From: an uncultured Woeseia sp.
GTDB taxonomy: Bacteria; Pseudomonadota; Gammaproteobacteria; Steroidobacterales; Woeseiaceae
DNA: 64,000 nucleotides
Reading direction: 5' to 3'
Assembly (NCBI GenBank): GCA_913031125.1
Contig: CAJWFK010000011.1
Span: 1 to 64,000, forward strand
Below are positions 14,605 to 23,049 of the stretch, piece after piece. Every line of letters begins with the position of its first letter. Within the stretch, counting starts at the first letter, position 1. The notes beneath the pieces are model-generated. The model was not told where the DNA came from. It saw nothing but the letters and a program-made list of their open reading frames with translations, and searched no databases. The position numbers and the translations under genes were made by a program.

Positions 14605-15780
14605 TTACATTATTTCTTCTGAATCAATGCTGCGGGCTCTGCTTAAGGAGGTATGTCCAAAACGAGCGCGAATTTTATCAACAGTTTGTTCAAGGTTAGC
14701 TTTATTCGCCAATATGTCTGTTGAGAATAGATCGGTCTGTATGTCTGGAGCAAGTTGGCTGCAGCCCACACCCAAAAGACGCAGTTCAGTATCGGGATAT
14801 GTCGTAAGCCATTTATCAAGGAGATTCAGTGCTGCTGTGTATACGGATTTAGTCAGGTTATTTGGAGGAAGAAGCGAGCATTGCCTAGTAGACGTCGAGA
14901 AATCTGCTTTTCTAACCTTAATATGAACAGTTCCCGCCACCAGTTGTTCCGCACGCAGCCGGCTTGAGGTTTGTTCTGCGAGCTTCAACAATTCTCTATA
15001 CATTATTGGTCGATCGAACACGTCAGAGTTGAAAGTTACTTCTGCGCTGATTGACTTTCTTTCTCGATTAGGTCGCACTGACCGCTTATCAATACCCGCG
15101 GCTTTTTCTTGCGCTTGTTTTGTGAACCGGCCGAATATTGGCTCGAGATGACCTTTTGATGTCTGCCTCAGATCACCGACCGTAAATACTTTAATACGCT
15201 GCAATCGCGCCAATGTTTCAGGTCCGATTCCAGGAATAACCTGAACGGGTAGAGGGTCTAGAACTTCTTGCATGTTGTGATTACTGATAAAAAAAATACC
15301 ATCTGGCTTATCAAGATCGGAGGCTATCTTTGCAACTAATTTGTTAGGGGCAATACCGATGGATGCTGTGAGACCTGTTTGCTGGAATATGGAGTCCTTT
15401 ATTTTTGTCGCAATATTAATTTCATCGCCAAAGAGTCGTATGCTGTTACTCACGTCGAGAAAGGCTTCGTCCAGTGAAAGTTTTTCGATAATTGGTGTGA
15501 ATTCAAGAAATATTGAAAATATTTGTTTTGACACTGCTGCATAATCTGACATACGTGTGTTGATTTGGACTAAATTAGGACATTTCCGCATTGCTTCTTT
15601 CATTGGCATAGCAGATCGAATACCAAATTTGCGAGCCTCATAACTGGCAGCGGCAACTACGCCTCGTTTATTTCCTCCAACAACAACAGGTTTACCTCTT
15701 AGTGATGGATTATCTCTTTGTTCCACAGATGCATAGAAAGCGTCCATATCCACATGCAAGATATTTGTTGCATTGGTCAC
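14605..15780 (-). CDS. dinB: DNA polymerase IV (Y family)
   Basis: This 391-residue translesion polymerase has HVDMDAFYASVEQ with metal ligand Asp11 and steric-gate Phe15, and SLDEAFLDVS with Asp104/Glu105. A helix-hairpin-helix region VIPGIGPETLARL follows, then the little-finger domain. A QTDLF motif near residue 347, close to the C-terminus, fits a sliding-clamp binding site, although it is not at the extreme end as in E. coli. The start overlaps the stop of ispA by 4 bases (ATGA), so translation is probably coupled to a prenyltransferase gene, an unusual pairing. No LexA box is evident near it. Confidence 0.95.
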   Translation of the reverse strand: MTNATNILHVDMDAFYASVEQRDNPSLRGKPVVVGGNKRGVVAAASYEARKFGIRSAMPMKEAMRKCPNLVQINTRMSDYAAVSKQIFSIFLEFTPIIEKLSLDEAFLDVSNSIRLFGDEINIATKIKDSIFQQTGLTASIGIAPNKLVAKIASDLDKPDGIFFISNHNMQEVLDPLPVQVIPGIGPETLARLQRIKVFTVGDLRQTSKGHLEPIFGRFTKQAQEKAAGIDKRSVRPNRERKSISAEVTFNSDVFDRPIMYRELLKLAEQTSSRLRAEQLVAGTVHIKVRKADFSTSTRQCSLLPPNNLTKSVYTAALNLLDKWLTTYPDTELRLLGVGCSQLAPDIQTDLFSTDILANKANLEQTVDKIRARFGHTSLSRARSIDSEEIM

Positions 15781-16685
15781 CGATTTCGTCCCACGATGAG
15801 CTTAGCTAGCATTCTAAGAGGGTCTGCTTCTTTACCAAAGATATTTAGCTTCTCGTGTGCCGATTCACTCAACCGCTGGCAAATATTGATACTTTCATCC
15901 ATTCCAAAAAGGGCTGGCCATGTTGCTTTGTCTTTATCCTGATCTGAACCGGCAGGCTTTCCAATAGTAGAAGTGTTCCCATCGACGTCGAGAATGTCAT
16001 CTCGAATTTGAAATGCAAGTCCAATATCTAGTGAAAAACCGTTAATAGCTGAGAGATGAGTTGAGTCAATTCTGTCAGCAATGCATCCCGCTGCCATTAT
16101 TGATGCACTAATCAAAGCCCCTGTTTTCAACAGATACATTTCGGTAATTTCTTCGACCAAAAGACTCCTACCTTCAGATTTCAGATCCATTGCTTGACCT
16201 CCTGTCATTCCGAGGGAACCACATGCCTTTGAGATCAATGAAGTGAGTGAACGTACTTCTTGATTGTTAAGATGCTGCTCGCCACTAATTAACTGAAATG
16301 CTAAAGGTTGGAGGGCATCGGCTGCCAGAATGGCTATTGCCTCCCCATATTTAATGTGAACAGTTGGTTGGCCCCGACGTAGGTCATCATTATCCATTGC
16401 GGGCAGATCGTCATGTACGAGAGAAAACGCATGAATGAACTCGATTGCCGCTGCGGGCGCATCTAGCTTGATTGGATCAATCCCAAGGCACTCTCCGGAC
16501 GCATACACTAGCAATGGCCGGATTCGTTTACCACTTGATAGGGTGGCATACCGCATAGCTTCGTGTAATTCTTCGGGAGGCTTACTGGCCGGAGGTAATA
16601 CTTGCGCCATATAGGTTTCGATACGGCGGACATAATCAGGTATACGTGCTTTGAAATCTTTAACTTCAGGGTGAATCTGGATCAT
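15777..16685 (-). CDS. ispA: Farnesyl (geranyl) diphosphate synthase
   Basis: The 302-residue trans-prenyltransferase has the first Asp-rich motif HDDLPAMDNDDLRRG (91-105, DDxxxxD) and the second QIRDDILD. GKRIRPLL (52-59) binds the homoallylic substrate. The bacterial DDxxxxD insertion and the length are typical of IspA, which joins IPP and DMAPP to FPP. In most gammaproteobacteria ispA sits between xseB and dxs. Here it is divergent from the mevalonate cluster, whose product it uses, with 93 bases between the two starts. It begins the minus-strand run continuing into dinB. Confidence 0.93.
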   Translation of the reverse strand: MIQIHPEVKDFKARIPDYVRRIETYMAQVLPPASKPPEELHEAMRYATLSSGKRIRPLLVYASGECLGIDPIKLDAPAAAIEFIHAFSLVHDDLPAMDNDDLRRGQPTVHIKYGEAIAILAADALQPLAFQLISGEQHLNNQEVRSLTSLISKACGSLGMTGGQAMDLKSEGRSLLVEEITEMYLLKTGALISASIMAAGCIADRIDSTHLSAINGFSLDIGLAFQIRDDILDVDGNTSTIGKPAGSDQDKDKATWPALFGMDESINICQRLSESAHEKLNIFGKEADPLRMLAKLIVGRNR

Positions 16686-16778: not shown

Positions 16779-17732
16779 ATGCGAGTTAGCGCACAAGCAC
16801 AACCAAACATTGCCTTAGTGAAATATTGGGGTAAGCGCGATGGTGGGGGTAACCTGCCCGCGACTGGTTCATTGTCAGTTACGCTTGAAAGTCTTTGGAC
16901 TAGAATGATCCTACAAAGTAGTAAACATAGAAAAGACTCCCTAACAGTAAATGGCGTTAGTGCGCCAGAAATGTTGCCGCGAGTTAGTCGGTGCCTAGAT
17001 TCCGTTTTAGGTAGTAATCGCGAACGAATTCATGTGGTAAGTGACAGTAATTTTCCGATTGAGGCTGGTCTAGCATCCTCAGCTTCTGCTTTTTCTGCAC
17101 TAGTCATCGCAGCCAATAGGTTAACAGGCAAGAACTTGAGTTTTTCAGCATTGTCTCGTTTTGCTGGAGAAGCCTCTGGCTCTGCTGCCCGATCAATGTG
17201 CGGTGGTTTTGTCGAGTTAGTTGCGGATAGCGATAACGTACATATTCAGCAAATTGCCGATGCTGAGGAGTGGCCCCTTGAAGTAATAGTAGCTATAACT
17301 GCAGAAGGTAAGAAGCCAGTTGGTTCTGGAGAAGCCATGATTAGGAGTGCTAAAACTTCACCATTCTATTCAAGTTGGCTAAATCGGCAGGATCATGACC
17401 TAAAGTTGGCTAGGACTTCAATTTTGACACGCGATTTTGAAGCACTTGCATTTGTCTCGGAGCGAAATTGCTTAAAAATGCACTCGGTCATGTGGAGCAG
17501 TAGGCCACCAATTGTTTATTGGAATAGTGGCACGCTCGACTGTCTGCAGACTGTTAGGTCGTTACAGGCTAAGGGGCATGGGGTTTTTTTTACGATTGAT
17601 GCCGGACCACAGGTAAAAGCTATTTGCTTGCCGGAGTCACGGCAGGCAGTACATGATGCCTTAGTTGCAACGAACGGAGTTATCAAGGCTATCAGATCCA
17701 AAATCGGTCCTCCCGCAAGGTTGATCTTGTAG
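16779..17732 (+). CDS. mvaD: Diphosphomevalonate decarboxylase
   Basis: The 317-residue GHMP-family enzyme opens with NIALVKYWGKRD (10-21), the mevalonate-diphosphate decarboxylase signature. It has the phosphate loop GLASSASAFSA near 102 and the SAARSMCGGFVEL segment that contributes to substrate binding. Near the C-terminus TIDAGPQVK matches the family DAGPN-type motif. It converts mevalonate diphosphate to IPP using ATP, with loss of CO2. It is the first gene of a plus-strand operon, and the next gene starts on the last base of its stop codon. The enzyme is uncommon in Gammaproteobacteria, which mostly use the MEP pathway. Confidence 0.93.
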   Translation: MRVSAQAQPNIALVKYWGKRDGGGNLPATGSLSVTLESLWTRMILQSSKHRKDSLTVNGVSAPEMLPRVSRCLDSVLGSNRERIHVVSDSNFPIEAGLASSASAFSALVIAANRLTGKNLSFSALSRFAGEASGSAARSMCGGFVELVADSDNVHIQQIADAEEWPLEVIVAITAEGKKPVGSGEAMIRSAKTSPFYSSWLNRQDHDLKLARTSILTRDFEALAFVSERNCLKMHSVMWSSRPPIVYWNSGTLDCLQTVRSLQAKGHGVFFTIDAGPQVKAICLPESRQAVHDALVATNGVIKAIRSKIGPPARLIL

Positions 17733-18736
17733 TGAAATCGAGATCATTTAAAGCACCAGGGAAGGCACTGCTGTGTGGCGAGTATGCCGTTCTGCGTGGA
17801 GCACCGGCCATGTGCGTAGCGCTAAATTGTAGAGCACAGGTTACCGTCTCCAAGAGGACCGAAACAGTCAGTATTGTCAGTACGCTAGGGTTTGCCGAGG
17901 GCTCGTGGAGATTCAAAATAATAGATGAAAGTGTGGCATGGTTAGATCAGCCTCCTGAAGGAGTAAGGTCATTACTGGATGCCGCGTGCAAAAAGACCCG
18001 CTTAACCTCATGCTGCCCCGCTGCGCTCACAATAGACACATTAGCTTTTTATAGTCCTAGAGATAAGAAAAAATTGGGGTTGGGTTCAAGCTCAGCTACG
18101 ACAGTTGCACTAGTTGCTGCACTGCAGAAACAAAGTTTTGATATTGAGAATATTTGGGCCAATTCAAAAATGGTGCATAAAGCATTTCAGAATGGTAGGG
18201 GTAGTGGTATTGACATAGCTACCAGCTGCTTTGGAGGCCTCATCACTTATACAAGCTGCGATACTGCGCCCCCCACCAAAACCACTTGGCCAACCGGACT
18301 TTATTACCAGTTTTTCTACAGCGGGATTGAAGCAGATACTATCGCGGCTATTGATAGAGCTGCAGGCGTCAGCGAAAAATCATGGAATATGCTGATTGAG
18401 CACGCCCGGGACGCGGCGATAGCTTGGGGTTCCGGAAATGTTGAAGAAATATTGGACGCCATGGAACAGTATACGGTTAGTTTAAGGAAATTAGACTTGC
18501 TGTATGGACTTAATATTTTTGGGGCAGGGCATCAGGACTTGGTTGATTTAGCTAAAACCACATCGCTGATTTACAAGCCTTGTGGCTCGGGAGGTGGTGA
18601 TATTGGAGTTGCCCTTTCAAAAACAAAAAAAGATATTCAGGATTTTAGCCAATATGCTCGCATGAAAGGCTTTATGCCACTTGATCTTGAAATAGATAAT
18701 AATGGCGTGATACCAACTATCGGAGAAAAAGTGTGA
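17732..18736 (+). CDS. Phosphomevalonate kinase (GHMP kinase)
   Basis: The 334-residue GHMP kinase has an N-terminal PGKALLCGEYAVL (9-21), phosphate loop GLGSSSATT (116-124), SGIDIATS near 158 and C-terminal KPCGSGGGDIGVAL. The last is the form typical of phosphomevalonate kinases (KPSGAGGGD in relatives). It should phosphorylate 5-phosphomevalonate to the diphosphate. The start is GTG at 17732, overlapping the upstream TAG stop by one base, so translation is coupled. Since the mevalonate kinase is present as the second half of the next gene, assigning this one to the second phosphorylation completes the pathway. Distinction from mevalonate kinase rests on motif form and context. Confidence 0.85.
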   Translation: MKSRSFKAPGKALLCGEYAVLRGAPAMCVALNCRAQVTVSKRTETVSIVSTLGFAEGSWRFKIIDESVAWLDQPPEGVRSLLDAACKKTRLTSCCPAALTIDTLAFYSPRDKKKLGLGSSSATTVALVAALQKQSFDIENIWANSKMVHKAFQNGRGSGIDIATSCFGGLITYTSCDTAPPTKTTWPTGLYYQFFYSGIEADTIAAIDRAAGVSEKSWNMLIEHARDAAIAWGSGNVEEILDAMEQYTVSLRKLDLLYGLNIFGAGHQDLVDLAKTTSLIYKPCGSGGGDIGVALSKTKKDIQDFSQYARMKGFMPLDLEIDNNGVIPTIGEKV

Positions 18737-20979
18737 CGAGGTCGCTCCTCAGTGGGTTTTATAAATTATCAGTTGAGCAGCGTATCGAGTTGTTAATAAG
18801 TAACGGCTTTCTGGTTGAAGAAGATGCCAACACTCTCCGTGATGGGTCTCCACTTCTATTAAGAAATGTGGCAGACAAAATGGTGGAAAATGTAGTTGGC
18901 GTTTTTGGGCTTCCGTTTGCGATTGCACCGAATCTTGTTGTGAATGGTAGAGACTACCTTGTTCCAATGGTCCTGGAGGAGCCATCGGTGGTGGCGGGGC
19001 TTAGTAGCGCGGCAAAGTTGGTTCAAGCTAGTGGTGGCTTTCAGGTGACATCTACTACTTCGATTATGATTGGCCAAGTGCAAATAATGAATATCGCAGC
19101 TGCTGATGAAGCGATGCAGATGCTGCAAGAGTCAAAAGATGAAATTCTGAAGATCGCTAACGAAGAGCACCTTAGGCTTAAGAAACGAGGGGGTGGAGCG
19201 AAAGATTTCGAACTATTTAAGTATCAGCAGCCGGATAAGAGCTGGATGGTAATAATGCATTTGCTGGTTGATACCAAAGATGCAATGGGTGCTAATATTG
19301 TTAATTCTATGTGTGAGCGAATTGCATCTCATATTGAGACAATTTGCGGGGGAGAGGTGTTACTCCGAATTCTATCCAACCTCGTAGATAAAGCACTTGT
19401 CAGCGCTACTGCGAATATCAGACTTTGTACTCTGGGCCCAGACGAATGTAGTTCGGTTGCCGTGCGTGACAATATCGTTCTTGCTAATGATTTCGCTAAT
19501 ATTGATCCACATAGGGCGGCAACTCACAACAAAGGCATTATGAATGGCATTGATGCAGTGGCTATAGCTACCGGTAATGATTGGCGCGCAATCGAAGCCG
19601 GAATTCATGCTTTTGCGGCTAAGGATGGTATCTACCGTTCACTGACTCGCTGGTTCGTTGCAGAAAATGGAGATCTAGCAGGCCAGCTAACTATTCCCTT
19701 GAAAGTTGGAATCGTCGGGGGCTCCCTGCGCGCAAACCCCGGAGCAGTACTTGGCTTGAAAATAACCGGAGTTAAATCGGCAATTGAACTTGCAGAACTC
19801 ATGGCAGCTGTAGGACTTGCACAGAATTTTTCAGCTTTGAGGGCACTGGTATCAACCGGTATACAGCATGGCCATATGGGCCTGCATGCGCGCAGTGTGG
19901 CAGCAAGTGCAAATGTGTCGAGCCAAGATTTCGATGAGGTTGTGCAACAATTGATAAAAAGCGGTGAAATTAAAAGCCGGAAGGCAACAGAAATCGCCGA
20001 ACAGATATCCTGTAAACGAAAAGAAAGAAAATATCTTGATTGCTGGCAAGGTAAAGGGCATGGCAAGGTGATCCTATTTGGCGAGCATGCTGCTGTTTAT
20101 GATCGACATGCTCTTGCTTTGCCATTGAAAGATGCGGTTGCCGTTCAACTTAGCGAAGGTAGCGGTGGCATGACCCTAACGATACCGGATTGGAAAATTG
20201 ACAATACTTGGGGGACGTGTGAAACAGGCCCAGAAGGGCTAAGTGAGGTGGTTAATTTTGTAATAAAGGAATTGGGTCTAACTGGTCGGGCATTTGATAT
20301 TAGGGCGTCAGCAAAAATTCCATTGGGAATGGGTCTCGGTTCCTCAGCAGCATTTTCTGTCGCACTAATCCGTGCCTTCAACATGCTCTTTGGAGGCAAG
20401 GACTCGGACGAAGAGATTAATCGAATGGCCTTTAAGTGTGAGGAGATTACGCATGGTTATCCGTCTGGTATTGATAACAATCTTGCCACTTTTGGCAAAC
20501 CGATTCTCTATTCTAAGTTAGATAAAACCCAAGGTGGTGAGATAAAACTGGAGCAGTGCTTACCGATTCTTGTTGCGCATAGCGGTAGCCAATCCGATAC
20601 AAAAAAAATGGTTGAAGCAGTGCGCTACCGCTATAAAAATAATGAGCCACTATACAACACAATTTTCGACGAGATTGACAAAATGGCAGCCTCTGGAGCA
20701 AGTGCGTTGTGCAAGGCGCATTACGATTATCTTGGGTCGTTAATGAATGTGTGTCATGGATTTCTGAACGCGATTGAAGTTTCTACACCAGAGCTTGAGC
20801 GGATGGTAAGAATTGCGAGAGAAGCGGGTGCAATAGGTGCTAAGTTGACTGGGGCAGGTGGTGGCGGATCGATTATTGCACTGTGTCCGGACAATATGCT
20901 TGCTGTTTCTAGAGCTCTAGAGGCTTCAGGCTATAATACTTTTTCAATGGAACAGAGACCGAGACCTAAGGGCATTTAA
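18733..20979 (+). CDS. Bifunctional class II HMG-CoA reductase - mevalonate kinase fusion
   Basis: One 748-residue frame holds two enzymes. Residues 1 to about 430 are a class II HMG-CoA reductase. The four catalytic residues are present and fall at the Pseudomonas mevalonii numbers: Glu83 (LEEPSVVAG), Lys267 (THNKGIMNG), Asp283 (GNDWRA) and His381 (QHGHMGLHAR). DAMGAN (183-188) marks the nucleotide site. Residues about 438-748 are a mevalonate kinase: KVILFGEHAAVY (445-456), PLGMGLGSSAAFS (530-542), catalytic Asp581 (SGIDNN) and KLTGAGGGGS (704-713). There is no stop or frameshift between them, and the junction is a short charged stretch (about 425-438). The chain would reduce HMG-CoA to mevalonate and phosphorylate it directly. 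Start GTG overlaps the previous stop by 4 bases. Confidence 0.93.
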   Translation: MTRSLLSGFYKLSVEQRIELLISNGFLVEEDANTLRDGSPLLLRNVADKMVENVVGVFGLPFAIAPNLVVNGRDYLVPMVLEEPSVVAGLSSAAKLVQASGGFQVTSTTSIMIGQVQIMNIAAADEAMQMLQESKDEILKIANEEHLRLKKRGGGAKDFELFKYQQPDKSWMVIMHLLVDTKDAMGANIVNSMCERIASHIETICGGEVLLRILSNLVDKALVSATANIRLCTLGPDECSSVAVRDNIVLANDFANIDPHRAATHNKGIMNGIDAVAIATGNDWRAIEAGIHAFAAKDGIYRSLTRWFVAENGDLAGQLTIPLKVGIVGGSLRANPGAVLGLKITGVKSAIELAELMAAVGLAQNFSALRALVSTGIQHGHMGLHARSVAASANVSSQDFDEVVQQLIKSGEIKSRKATEIAEQISCKRKERKYLDCWQGKGHGKVILFGEHAAVYDRHALALPLKDAVAVQLSEGSGGMTLTIPDWKIDNTWGTCETGPEGLSEVVNFVIKELGLTGRAFDIRASAKIPLGMGLGSSAAFSVALIRAFNMLFGGKDSDEEINRMAFKCEEITHGYPSGIDNNLATFGKPILYSKLDKTQGGEIKLEQCLPILVAHSGSQSDTKKMVEAVRYRYKNNEPLYNTIFDEIDKMAASGASALCKAHYDYLGSLMNVCHGFLNAIEVSTPELERMVRIAREAGAIGAKLTGAGGGGSIIALCPDNMLAVSRALEASGYNTFSMEQRPRPKGI

Positions 20980-20983
20980 GGAA

Positions 20984-21562
20984 GTGAGCGACTCGACAGC
21001 ACGCATCGTATCATCGGAGGACGAGTTATTAATACTTGTTGACTCAAACGACCAAGATATAGGTAATTTAAGTAAGGGGGCGTGCCATGATGGTTCAGGA
21101 TCGTTGCACCGTGCATTTTCTATTTTTCTTTTTAATAAGTGTGGGGAATTATTGGTACAGCAACGTTCTTCGGACAAAAGGCTATGGCCAATGTATTGGA
21201 CTAATAGTATTTGCAGTCACCCACGATGTGGTGAAACGATGGAACTGGCTGCTTCAAGGCGGTTGGATGACGAATTGCAGACCACTAGTGATCTCGAGTT
21301 TGTTTACAAGTTTGAGTACAGAGCAGATTATGGTGTTGAGGGTTCGGAACATGAACTATGCCATGTTTTTCTTGGTCGTTTAAATCATGAACCTACGATA
21401 AACAAAACAGAAATAGCTGCGATTCGCTACCTTTCAGCTGAAGATTTAGAAGTCGAGCTTAAAAGACACCCAGAAGTATTTACACCTTGGTTCAAAATGG
21501 AGTGGTCTAGATTGAGTACGACTTATTCAAGGTTATTGAGACGCTACGTGGCAGCAGATTAA
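20984..21562 (+). CDS. idi: Isopentenyl-diphosphate delta-isomerase, type I
   Basis: This 192-residue Nudix-fold isomerase has the active-site NSICSHPRCGE with catalytic Cys77. Metal ligands His35, His42 (SLHRAFS) and His79 are present, as is the EHELCHVF segment carrying the acidic catalytic residue. It interconverts IPP and DMAPP, which is essential when IPP arises only from mevalonate. The GTG start at 20984 lies 4 bases after the reductase/kinase stop, with AAGGAA almost touching it, so the ribosome site spacing is short. The 3' end shares a TTAA stop overlap with the convergent HMG-CoA synthase gene. Confidence 0.94.
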   Translation: MSDSTARIVSSEDELLILVDSNDQDIGNLSKGACHDGSGSLHRAFSIFLFNKCGELLVQQRSSDKRLWPMYWTNSICSHPRCGETMELAASRRLDDELQTTSDLEFVYKFEYRADYGVEGSEHELCHVFLGRLNHEPTINKTEIAAIRYLSAEDLEVELKRHPEVFTPWFKMEWSRLSTTYSRLLRRYVAAD

Positions 21563-23049
21563 CTAACATATTTGTAGTATTCGATTCCGATATCCTGAAA
21601 TTGTCGTTTGTCATGGCCGCCGATTTTTTCTATTATGAATTCGTTGCGGGGCAGATAGTTAAGATTAGTCACTTTGCGTCCGCTATGTAGAGCTACATAT
21701 TGTTCTTCATTAAGATCCACCGCAAAGTCCATGGCACGGTTGAAACCTATTTTGCTTGTTGCTTGTAGCCAGTTCTCTGAGACTATGAAAGGTATTACTT
21801 CGGCTGCGTCTCCGCTGCCATAACCAAGCGTTAAAAGCTCTTCCCCGGTAAGTTCTCTGTTTTCCTTTGCGGCCTGTTCGAATCCTGCCGCGATCCATGC
21901 AGGTAGCGCGGCTGTATAAAGGTTGCCGAGATCGAGCATATTGTCGCTTCCTAATGCAAGTTTATTCACTATCTCCTTACGATAACGAAGTGATTGCCGA
22001 AAAATACGAAAAACTGCCATCGTTAAAGGATAGGCCTCGTAGGTTACCCGTTCGGGCGTAGCAAATTCGGTAATCTCGGGCTTTGTGAGCATTTCTGCAA
22101 ATAAAGCATCTGGCTCTATGCCAGCCTTTGTACAATAAGAACTAAGTTCCTCGCGGTCGCTGGGAGAACCATTGCTTAATGCAAAGAGATATGACACAGC
22201 TAACCCAGTCTCAGGCATTCGTTTGTATGGTCGATGCATAAATACAGTATTAAGTGAGCGCAGATATTCGCAAGGTTCGAGATTTCTTTTTTCGTACATG
22301 TCGTTTAATGCATGTAACGTCTCATCTATATAGCAGGTCGTTGAGTATTTGCCATTGAATACAGGAAAATCTTGGACTTGCCTATTTTCACCTTGCTGTT
22401 GACCACATAAGCGGAGCAGTGGCTTGCGAAAGTCCATTATGCGGTAGTCTGATGCGGAACCAGAATTTACTAGATCGACTTTCACCAATTTTGGATTTTC
22501 TTCAAGGAGCATTGCGACTGCGCCTGCCCCTTGGGTGGGCTCACCACTTGAACCTCTGGCATATTCAGCAATATCGGCACAGACTACAATCGCCTGCCCC
22601 CCTGCTCCATCTAGTGCCAAATGACGCAAAGCTCCTTTCATACCATACACACCGCCTAGGCAGGCATGCTTGAATTCTGGTACTTCGCAACTCCTATTAA
22701 TTTGCTCCTTGCCCTGCATTATTAATGCTTGATCTACCATCCCTTTGACAATAATTGCGCCCGCTGAATTGTCTGTACTTGATTCCGTACCCAAGCCTAG
22801 GAACTTTACGCGAGAAGGATCTATTTCATATTGGTTTATTAACCGCATTACAGCTGTAGCGGCCATGGTATATACACTCTGATTCGGTCCACGTACACGG
22901 AAACTGCGGCCAACTACCTCATTAATTTTGGGCCAATGATTTCCACTCCATTGGCACCAGTCTTTCAGCCAGACGCGGTAGGGGGGTATGTAGGCAGCCA
23001 ACCCACTGATTCCTATATTTTTCATGTCCATTTGCGTCGGTAGAGGCAT
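21559..23049 (-). CDS. mvaS: Hydroxymethylglutaryl-CoA synthase
   Basis: The thiolase-fold protein is 496 residues with the start at 23049. Starts at 23031 and 23025 are also possible, and none has a clear SD. It has the catalytic Cys in FKHACLGGVYG (Cys130), Glu89 in LGTESSTDNSAG and FMHRPYKRM with the catalytic His. These match HMG-CoA synthase, which condenses acetyl-CoA with acetoacetyl-CoA. It is about 100 residues longer than typical bacterial MvaS (about 390), so it belongs to a divergent clade. It converges on idi, and fadE lies 59 bases upstream on the same strand. No acetoacetyl-CoA thiolase gene is in the window. Confidence 0.88.
   Translation of the reverse strand: MPLPTQMDMKNIGISGLAAYIPPYRVWLKDWCQWSGNHWPKINEVVGRSFRVRGPNQSVYTMAATAVMRLINQYEIDPSRVKFLGLGTESSTDNSAGAIIVKGMVDQALIMQGKEQINRSCEVPEFKHACLGGVYGMKGALRHLALDGAGGQAIVVCADIAEYARGSSGEPTQGAGAVAMLLEENPKLVKVDLVNSGSASDYRIMDFRKPLLRLCGQQQGENRQVQDFPVFNGKYSTTCYIDETLHALNDMYEKRNLEPCEYLRSLNTVFMHRPYKRMPETGLAVSYLFALSNGSPSDREELSSYCTKAGIEPDALFAEMLTKPEITEFATPERVTYEAYPLTMAVFRIFRQSLRYRKEIVNKLALGSDNMLDLGNLYTAALPAWIAAGFEQAAKENRELTGEELLTLGYGSGDAAEVIPFIVSENWLQATSKIGFNRAMDFAVDLNEEQYVALHSGRKVTNLNYLPRNEFIIEKIGGHDKRQFQDIGIEYYKYVS

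Follow-up and report, generated by a model that had tools for sequence, protein, structure and literature searches.

Fusions of pathway enzymes are already known as a kind in isoprenoid precursor synthesis. MvaE of Enterococcus faecalis joins an acetoacetyl-CoA thiolase to a 3-hydroxy-3-methylglutaryl-CoA (HMG-CoA) reductase (HMGR) (PMC10070635), and a review from 2026 mentions it as well as the IspDF fusion of the methylerythritol phosphate (MEP) route (PMC13001223). The single enzymes to which the present case can be compared are the class II HMGR of Pseudomonas mevalonii (1qax; TIGR00532) and the mevalonate kinases (MVKs; TIGR00549) with solved structures, such as those of Methanosarcina mazei (6mde) and Leishmania major (2hfs). 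Here, we analyse a gene from an uncultured Woeseia sp. that encodes a class II HMGR and an MVK in one reading frame. It lies in a stretch of 64,000 nucleotides (contig CAJWFK010000011.1, positions 1 to 64,000), called the window in the following.

Like MvaE, the encoded protein naturally combines two enzymes of the mevalonate pathway and has a class II HMGR as one of the partners. However, in MvaE the HMGR is C-terminal behind the thiolase, while here it is N-terminal ahead of the next enzyme of the pathway, and no thiolase domain was found in the protein by Pfam and NCBIfam scans. IspDF is likewise a bifunctional fusion in isoprenoid precursor synthesis, but it belongs to another pathway and joins non-consecutive steps. 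Compared to the P. mevalonii HMGR, with which the protein shares a full-length alignment through the flap, the four catalytic residues and the ENVxG dimer element, the fusion adds a kinase after the flap and has His146 and Arg152 in place of the NADH-type aspartate. With the solved MVKs it shares the fold and the lysine, glutamate and aspartate of the GHMP kinases at 25-30% identity, the difference being the HMGR as N-terminal partner. What is new is thus the MVK as partner of an HMGR. The preliminary description of this DNA knew of no characterised enzyme of this design, which agrees with the open-licence literature as covered by titles and the beginnings of abstracts, a scope in which subscription journals are mostly not included. 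The sections consulted of PMC13001223 do not mention an HMGR-MVK fusion, and word searches of PMC11237513 and PMC11052028 gave nothing on it.

The fused protein and its two halves

The gene and its parts are the following:

18733..20979, + strand: HMGR-MVK fusion gene, 748 aa (Pfam and NCBIfam profile scans)
18733..20004, + strand: class II HMG-CoA reductase half, residues 1-424, with the C-terminal flap that carries His381 (TIGR00532; E83, K267, D283, H381)
20005..20061, + strand: linker, residues 425-443, between HMGR flap and kinase
20062..20976, + strand: mevalonate kinase half, residues 444-748 (TIGR00549; K445, E570, D581, motif KLTGAGGGG)

The open reading frame has a GTG start codon, which overlaps with the stop (TGA) of the kinase gene before it, ends with a TAA and contains no internal stop. 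Both family profiles exceed their cut-offs, TIGR00532 (HMG-CoA reductase) with 386.8 bits over residues 3-386 (cut-off 259.95) and TIGR00549 (mevalonate kinase) with 242.2 bits over residues 443-717 (cut-off 163.05), and the same holds for PF00368, PF00288 and PF08544 in the Pfam scan. The P. mevalonii HMGR (1qax_A) can be aligned over residues 6-424, with identical numbering from about residue 42 onward, and all four HMGR catalytic residues, E83, K267, D283 and H381, are kept at the positions that the preliminary description had assigned to them. The element ENVxGx3(I/L/V)P, described as the dimer element of class II HMGRs (PMC10070635), is present as ENVVGVFGLP at residues 52-61, and E52, N53, V54 and P61 are invariant in the 76 rows compared.

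GHMP kinases use a lysine, a Mg-binding glutamate and a catalytic aspartate. The aspartate is D581, placed by the motif YPSGIDNN, so that the earlier assignment of a complete MVK half with this residue also stands.

The same in-frame fusion was found in 82 other loci, two of which end at a contig edge inside the kinase half. Together with the window these give 83 fused rows, with differing HMGR parts in 82. A sequencing artefact, which the preliminary description had named as one way in which its reading could fail, is thereby ruled out, be it an assembly error, a frameshift or chance: the gene is real, a single-frame fusion of a complete HMGR and a complete MVK. The four HMGR catalytic residues and the kinase lysine (K445) are kept in all 83 rows, and the kinase glutamate (E570) and aspartate (D581) in all 81 rows that reach the site. 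For nine near pairs, the ratio of nonsynonymous to synonymous substitution rates (dN/dS) ranges from 0.002 to 0.32 in the two halves, with a single undefined value for HMGR; only the order of size of these ratios counts, since many dS values are near or over 1. They point to intact purifying selection on both halves. The earlier statement that both halves look active is thus well supported by the family scores, the complete catalytic residues, the low dN/dS and the finding, discussed below, of no other HMGR or MVK copy, and the protein is very probably bifunctional.

A detail absent from the preliminary description concerns the cofactor. Residue 146, an aspartate in P. mevalonii, is a histidine in the fusion protein, whose cofactor helix has H146, R148 and R152. 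According to Miller and Kung, as given in PMC13370337, the helix follows the pattern Dx(V/L)xxxL in NADH enzymes and (H/Y)xSxxxR in NADPH enzymes, and in the Ruegeria HMGR it is an aspartate at position 154 that decides for NADH (PMC12292504). We take this site to correspond to position 146 here. The NADH-type pattern is not found in the fusion protein: position 146 is H in 66, Q in 16, N in one and D in none of the 83 fused rows. Of the NADPH-type pattern, H146 and R152 fit, the latter being present in 82 of the 83 rows, while position 148 is an arginine and a serine occurs there in only two rows. As a control, the 51 unfused rows have D146 in 25 and R152 in 21 cases. The fusion HMGR thus probably uses NADPH and would be biosynthetic.

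We now consider how the two halves are connected. In the window, the linker has 19 residues and the HMGR flap is entire, and among the 83 fused rows linkers of 9 to 81 residues occur, with a median length of 24 and a composition rich in P, T, S, K, Q and A. The mean share of the majority residue is 0.24 in the linker, as compared to 0.68 in the HMGR core, 0.72 in the flap and 0.59 in the kinase. An AlphaFold model of the monomer has confident domains, with a mean predicted local distance difference test (pLDDT) score of 90.4 and a predicted template modelling (pTM) score of 0.66, and in a Foldseek comparison it matches the P. mevalonii HMGR (425 columns) as well as the M. mazei MVK. In the model, a single helix (residues 415-436) leads from the flap into the first kinase strand, with block pLDDT values of 82 for residues 421-430 and 69 for residues 431-440. 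The preliminary description had expected a structure prediction to tell whether the active sites face each other. The model predicts both domains confidently, but with a linker that varies between 9 and 81 residues and a pTM of only 0.66, it does not show how the two sites are placed relative to each other. Two fused proteins from metagenome-assembled genomes (MAGs; L028:6001-8127 and L042:2304-4367) are without the flap end past about residue 397-399 and keep His381.

We conclude that the protein consists of two complete enzymes on a loose tether, and a 1:1 stoichiometry would follow provided that the chain is not cleaved once it has been made. Class II HMGRs are known to form dimers or larger assemblies in which the active site is shared between subunits, and each particle should therefore carry several kinases.

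Gene context, occurrence and copy number

The genes adjoining the fusion are listed here:

15777..16685, − strand: farnesyl diphosphate synthase, divergent from mvaD (NF045485, 316.7 bits, cut-off 275)
16779..17732, + strand: diphosphomevalonate decarboxylase, mvaD (TIGR01240, 234.5 bits, cut-off 171.35)
17732..18736, + strand: phosphomevalonate kinase, pmk (TIGR01220, 103.4 bits, below the cut-off of 165.7; position shared with other loci)
20984..21562, + strand: isopentenyl-diphosphate isomerase type 1, idi (NF002995, 163 bits, cut-off 127)
21559..23049, − strand: HMG-CoA synthase-like gene converging with idi (under the NCBIfam cut-offs; PF01154 and PF08540 exceed theirs)

Since mvaD, pmk, the fusion gene and idi are all on the + strand and overlap their neighbours or lie a few bases apart, they likely form an operon. 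The HMG-CoA synthase-like protein (496 aa) scores 158.9 bits with TIGR01835, for which the cut-off is 360.35. It is matched in 18 of the 19 loci L003-L021, with 63-76% identity over the covered parts, and is perhaps a divergent HMG-CoA synthase subfamily.

The taxonomic mapping suggested in the preliminary description finds the fusion in several phyla. It was carried out with 80 loci from named genomes, the best of 587 related loci by likeness to the fused protein, and the counts are therefore not frequencies. Of these, 43 are fused in frame and 37 are not. The fused ones belong, according to the phylum labels of the records, many of which are MAGs, mostly to Pseudomonadota (27), with six from Actinomycetota (five Cryobacterium and one Nakamurella MAG), five from Calditrichota, three from Acidobacteriota, one from Planctomycetota and one without a phylum. 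Directly upstream on the same strand, 36 of the 43 have mvaD and pmk, and in 24 of these 36 idi also comes next downstream. Of the remaining seven, two have pmk alone upstream and five have neither, in some cases owing to a short locus. In the five Cryobacterium loci, idi is never the same-strand neighbour of the fusion. This comparison of gene order also drew on tblastn matches.

In a set of 60 relatives, which includes the window's own genome, 46 carry the fusion, whole or truncated by a contig end, in a frame running across the junction. One further match (G058), the 47th, is weak, covers the kinase only and is not counted among the 46. In G009, a match on contig C194 with 60% identity to the HMGR half was considered as a close unfused copy and was discarded, as it stops at the contig end. 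Of 369 genomes drawn evenly from the class, nine contain the fusion at full length and one more a fragment, and in a sample of 398 genomes of the phylum (E up to 1e-60) two have the fusion, while in 13 only an HMGR is matched.

The window's genome is 94% complete with 4.4% contamination, and in this assembly no HMGR and no MVK beyond the fusion were found, nor were the MEP markers DXR and IspH. Among the 60 relatives, an MVK over the cut-off occurs in 44, one in each and inside the fusion frames, with contig-cut MVKs in G010 and G054. DXR is present in ten relatives and IspH in ten, 11 genomes in total having one or both, and none of the 46 fused relatives matches either marker; the 60 are related to each other and do not represent independent trials. 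Three relatives lack the fusion, DXR and IspH. One of them, G012 (94% complete), also has no MVK and contains an HMGR-family gene, while in G029 and G035 neither an MVK nor an HMGR-family gene was found. We tentatively put these missing markers down to incomplete assemblies. In the 50 genomes behind the other loci (49 fused and one split, of which at least L063 looks identical to the relative G041), exactly one MVK is over the cut-off in 48, and the other two are contig-cut.

In the fused genomes among these relatives, the fusion thus belongs to the only isoprenoid route that turned up. As the 46 fused relatives show no match to the MEP markers and the window's genome contains no second HMGR or MVK, the fusion should carry all the flux from HMG-CoA to phosphomevalonate in the latter, and for the same reasons it should be essential for all isoprenoids there. 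A mevalonate-catabolic role, which the name 'degradative' of TIGR00532 could suggest, is unlikely, as mvaD, pmk and idi adjoin, MEP markers are missing and D146 is absent.

Standalone HMGR-family genes are a separate observation. They are found as a second HMGR in fused relatives and also in four unfused ones (G012, G039, G044 and G045), of which the last three lack an MVK but show MEP markers. The genes that were scanned, in four loci (L144:5600-12414, L145:1739-6365, L148:590-7962 and L142:1222-6190), three of them from the fused relatives G008, G021 and G022, are class I-like, scoring 281-332 bits with TIGR00533, under its cut-off of 441.8. The standalone HMGR is adjoined by varying sets of neighbours, namely a PEP-synthase-like protein that resembles the ligases PigC/RedH in L144, L145 and L148, a prenyltransferase-like protein in L144 and L145, an MMPL transporter in L142, L144 and L148, and a WS/DGAT protein in L142. 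Rather than to the mevalonate pathway, these loci may belong to a cassette for a lipid or natural product.

Origin, mechanism and alternative explanations

The phylogenetic analysis consists of quick trees without bootstrap. In the HMGR tree with all 134 rows, the fused rows need two changes. Two MAGs labelled as Woeseiaceae stand there in a starred group of nine that also holds four members of the window's family, a placement that makes Woeseiaceae likely. When the very long branch L140 is dropped, a single split with a Shimodaira-Hasegawa-like approximate likelihood ratio (SH-aLRT) support of 100 separates the 83 fused from the 50 unfused rows, and the fused rows again form one group (SH-aLRT 100) when all ten divergent rows are removed. 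Several independent fusions were therefore set aside. In the MVK tree (100 rows), the fused kinase halves also form one group, with a weaker support (SH-aLRT only 80) and the warning that long branches meet. These trees do not separate gain from loss of the fusion, because the root was not inferred. HMGR and MVK are adjacent separate genes in six Bacillaceae loci, and in a Myxococcaceae MAG (L058:3536-5722) they share one frame that is interrupted by just one TGA, with a GTG three bases on. The latter looks like the state before, or after, fusion, and such adjacent unfused genes may show how the fusion began.

The mechanism that we propose, and that we consider likely as a whole, is a bifunctional enzyme that converts HMG-CoA via mevalonate to mevalonate 5-phosphate, with independently folded domains on a flexible tether, and that is essential in this genome. 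The HMGR half would turn HMG-CoA into mevalonate, probably with NADPH, and the MVK half would then make mevalonate 5-phosphate with ATP. The tether, short and leaving from the end of the mobile HMGR flap, would fix 1:1 expression and hold the kinase beside its substrate source. As a consequence, the reversible HMGR step would be pulled forward by ATP, and loss of mevalonate would become less likely.

It should be pointed out that a number of observations weigh against parts of this proposal. A second HMGR-family gene is present in 13 of the 46 fused relatives, the window's genome not being among them, so that the fusion is not the sole HMGR in those 13. A DXR match occurs in 11 of the 50 genomes behind the other loci, including all five Cryobacterium and two Calditrichota that are barely over the cut-off, and the either/or relation with the MEP route is thus not strict there. 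Both pmk and the HMG-CoA synthase-like gene score under the NCBIfam cut-offs. The use of NADPH is a guess from two of the three motif positions, because position 148 is an arginine, and the importance of the tether for flux is something that we infer.

The fusion could also have arisen without any benefit, in that HMGR and MVK as operon neighbours lost the stop codon between them once and the joined gene then spread with the operon. The unfused neighbours in Bacillaceae and Myxococcaceae, the unconstrained linker and the mvaD-pmk pair that immediately precedes the fusion in 36 of the 43 named loci with a fused gene all speak for this scenario. On the other hand, no fused lineage reverts to the split form among the 133 rows of the HMGR tree without L140, even though a stop is easily gained; since similarity to the fused protein decided which rows were included, this absence is weak evidence. 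We regard such a neutral read-through as possible, if doubtful. That the two enzymes are in effect made separately, because translation starts internally or the linker is cleaved, or that one half is dead, we consider very improbable. An in-frame ATG, GTG or TTG does occur somewhere in 46 of the 83 linkers, but the other 37, including that of the window, have no start codon before the catalytic lysine of the kinase (Lys445 in the window), a Shine-Dalgarno-like tetramer precedes a linker start codon in only nine of the 83, and both halves keep their catalytic residues and are under purifying selection.

Channelling, which the preliminary description had raised, is a guess. In its strict form, the two sites would meet across a conserved interface and mevalonate would pass without mixing with the bulk. 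The linker of 9-81 unconserved residues argues for a tethered pair rather than a rigid tunnel, no interface is defined in the monomer model (pTM 0.66 despite confident domains), and the flap end is absent from L028 and L042. It is true that consecutive steps are on one chain, that the fused rows group together across phyla and that the end of the HMGR flap continues as one helix toward the kinase in the model. Taken together, we find true channelling improbable. A related version makes use of the flap, which closes over the HMGR site and brings His381. Being tied to the kinase, its closing could be coupled to kinase occupancy, with mevalonate handed on within the particle, making the protein a channelling or allosteric pair; this we likewise hold to be a long shot.

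Meaning for the mevalonate pathway

For annotation, the fusion is a trap, since the matching HMGR family is named 'degradative' while the gene order and the cofactor residues point to biosynthesis. HMGR is usually called the rate-limiting enzyme of the mevalonate pathway (PMC13001223). A natural HMGR-MVK fusion, which forms one group across several phyla and occurs among the 60 relatives solely in genomes without MEP markers, lends itself directly to testing whether flux gains from the joining of the two steps. It is also a possible part for isoprenoid engineering. If the coupling between flap and kinase were true, the fusion would represent a natural channelled or allosteric pair at the flux-controlling point of the pathway.

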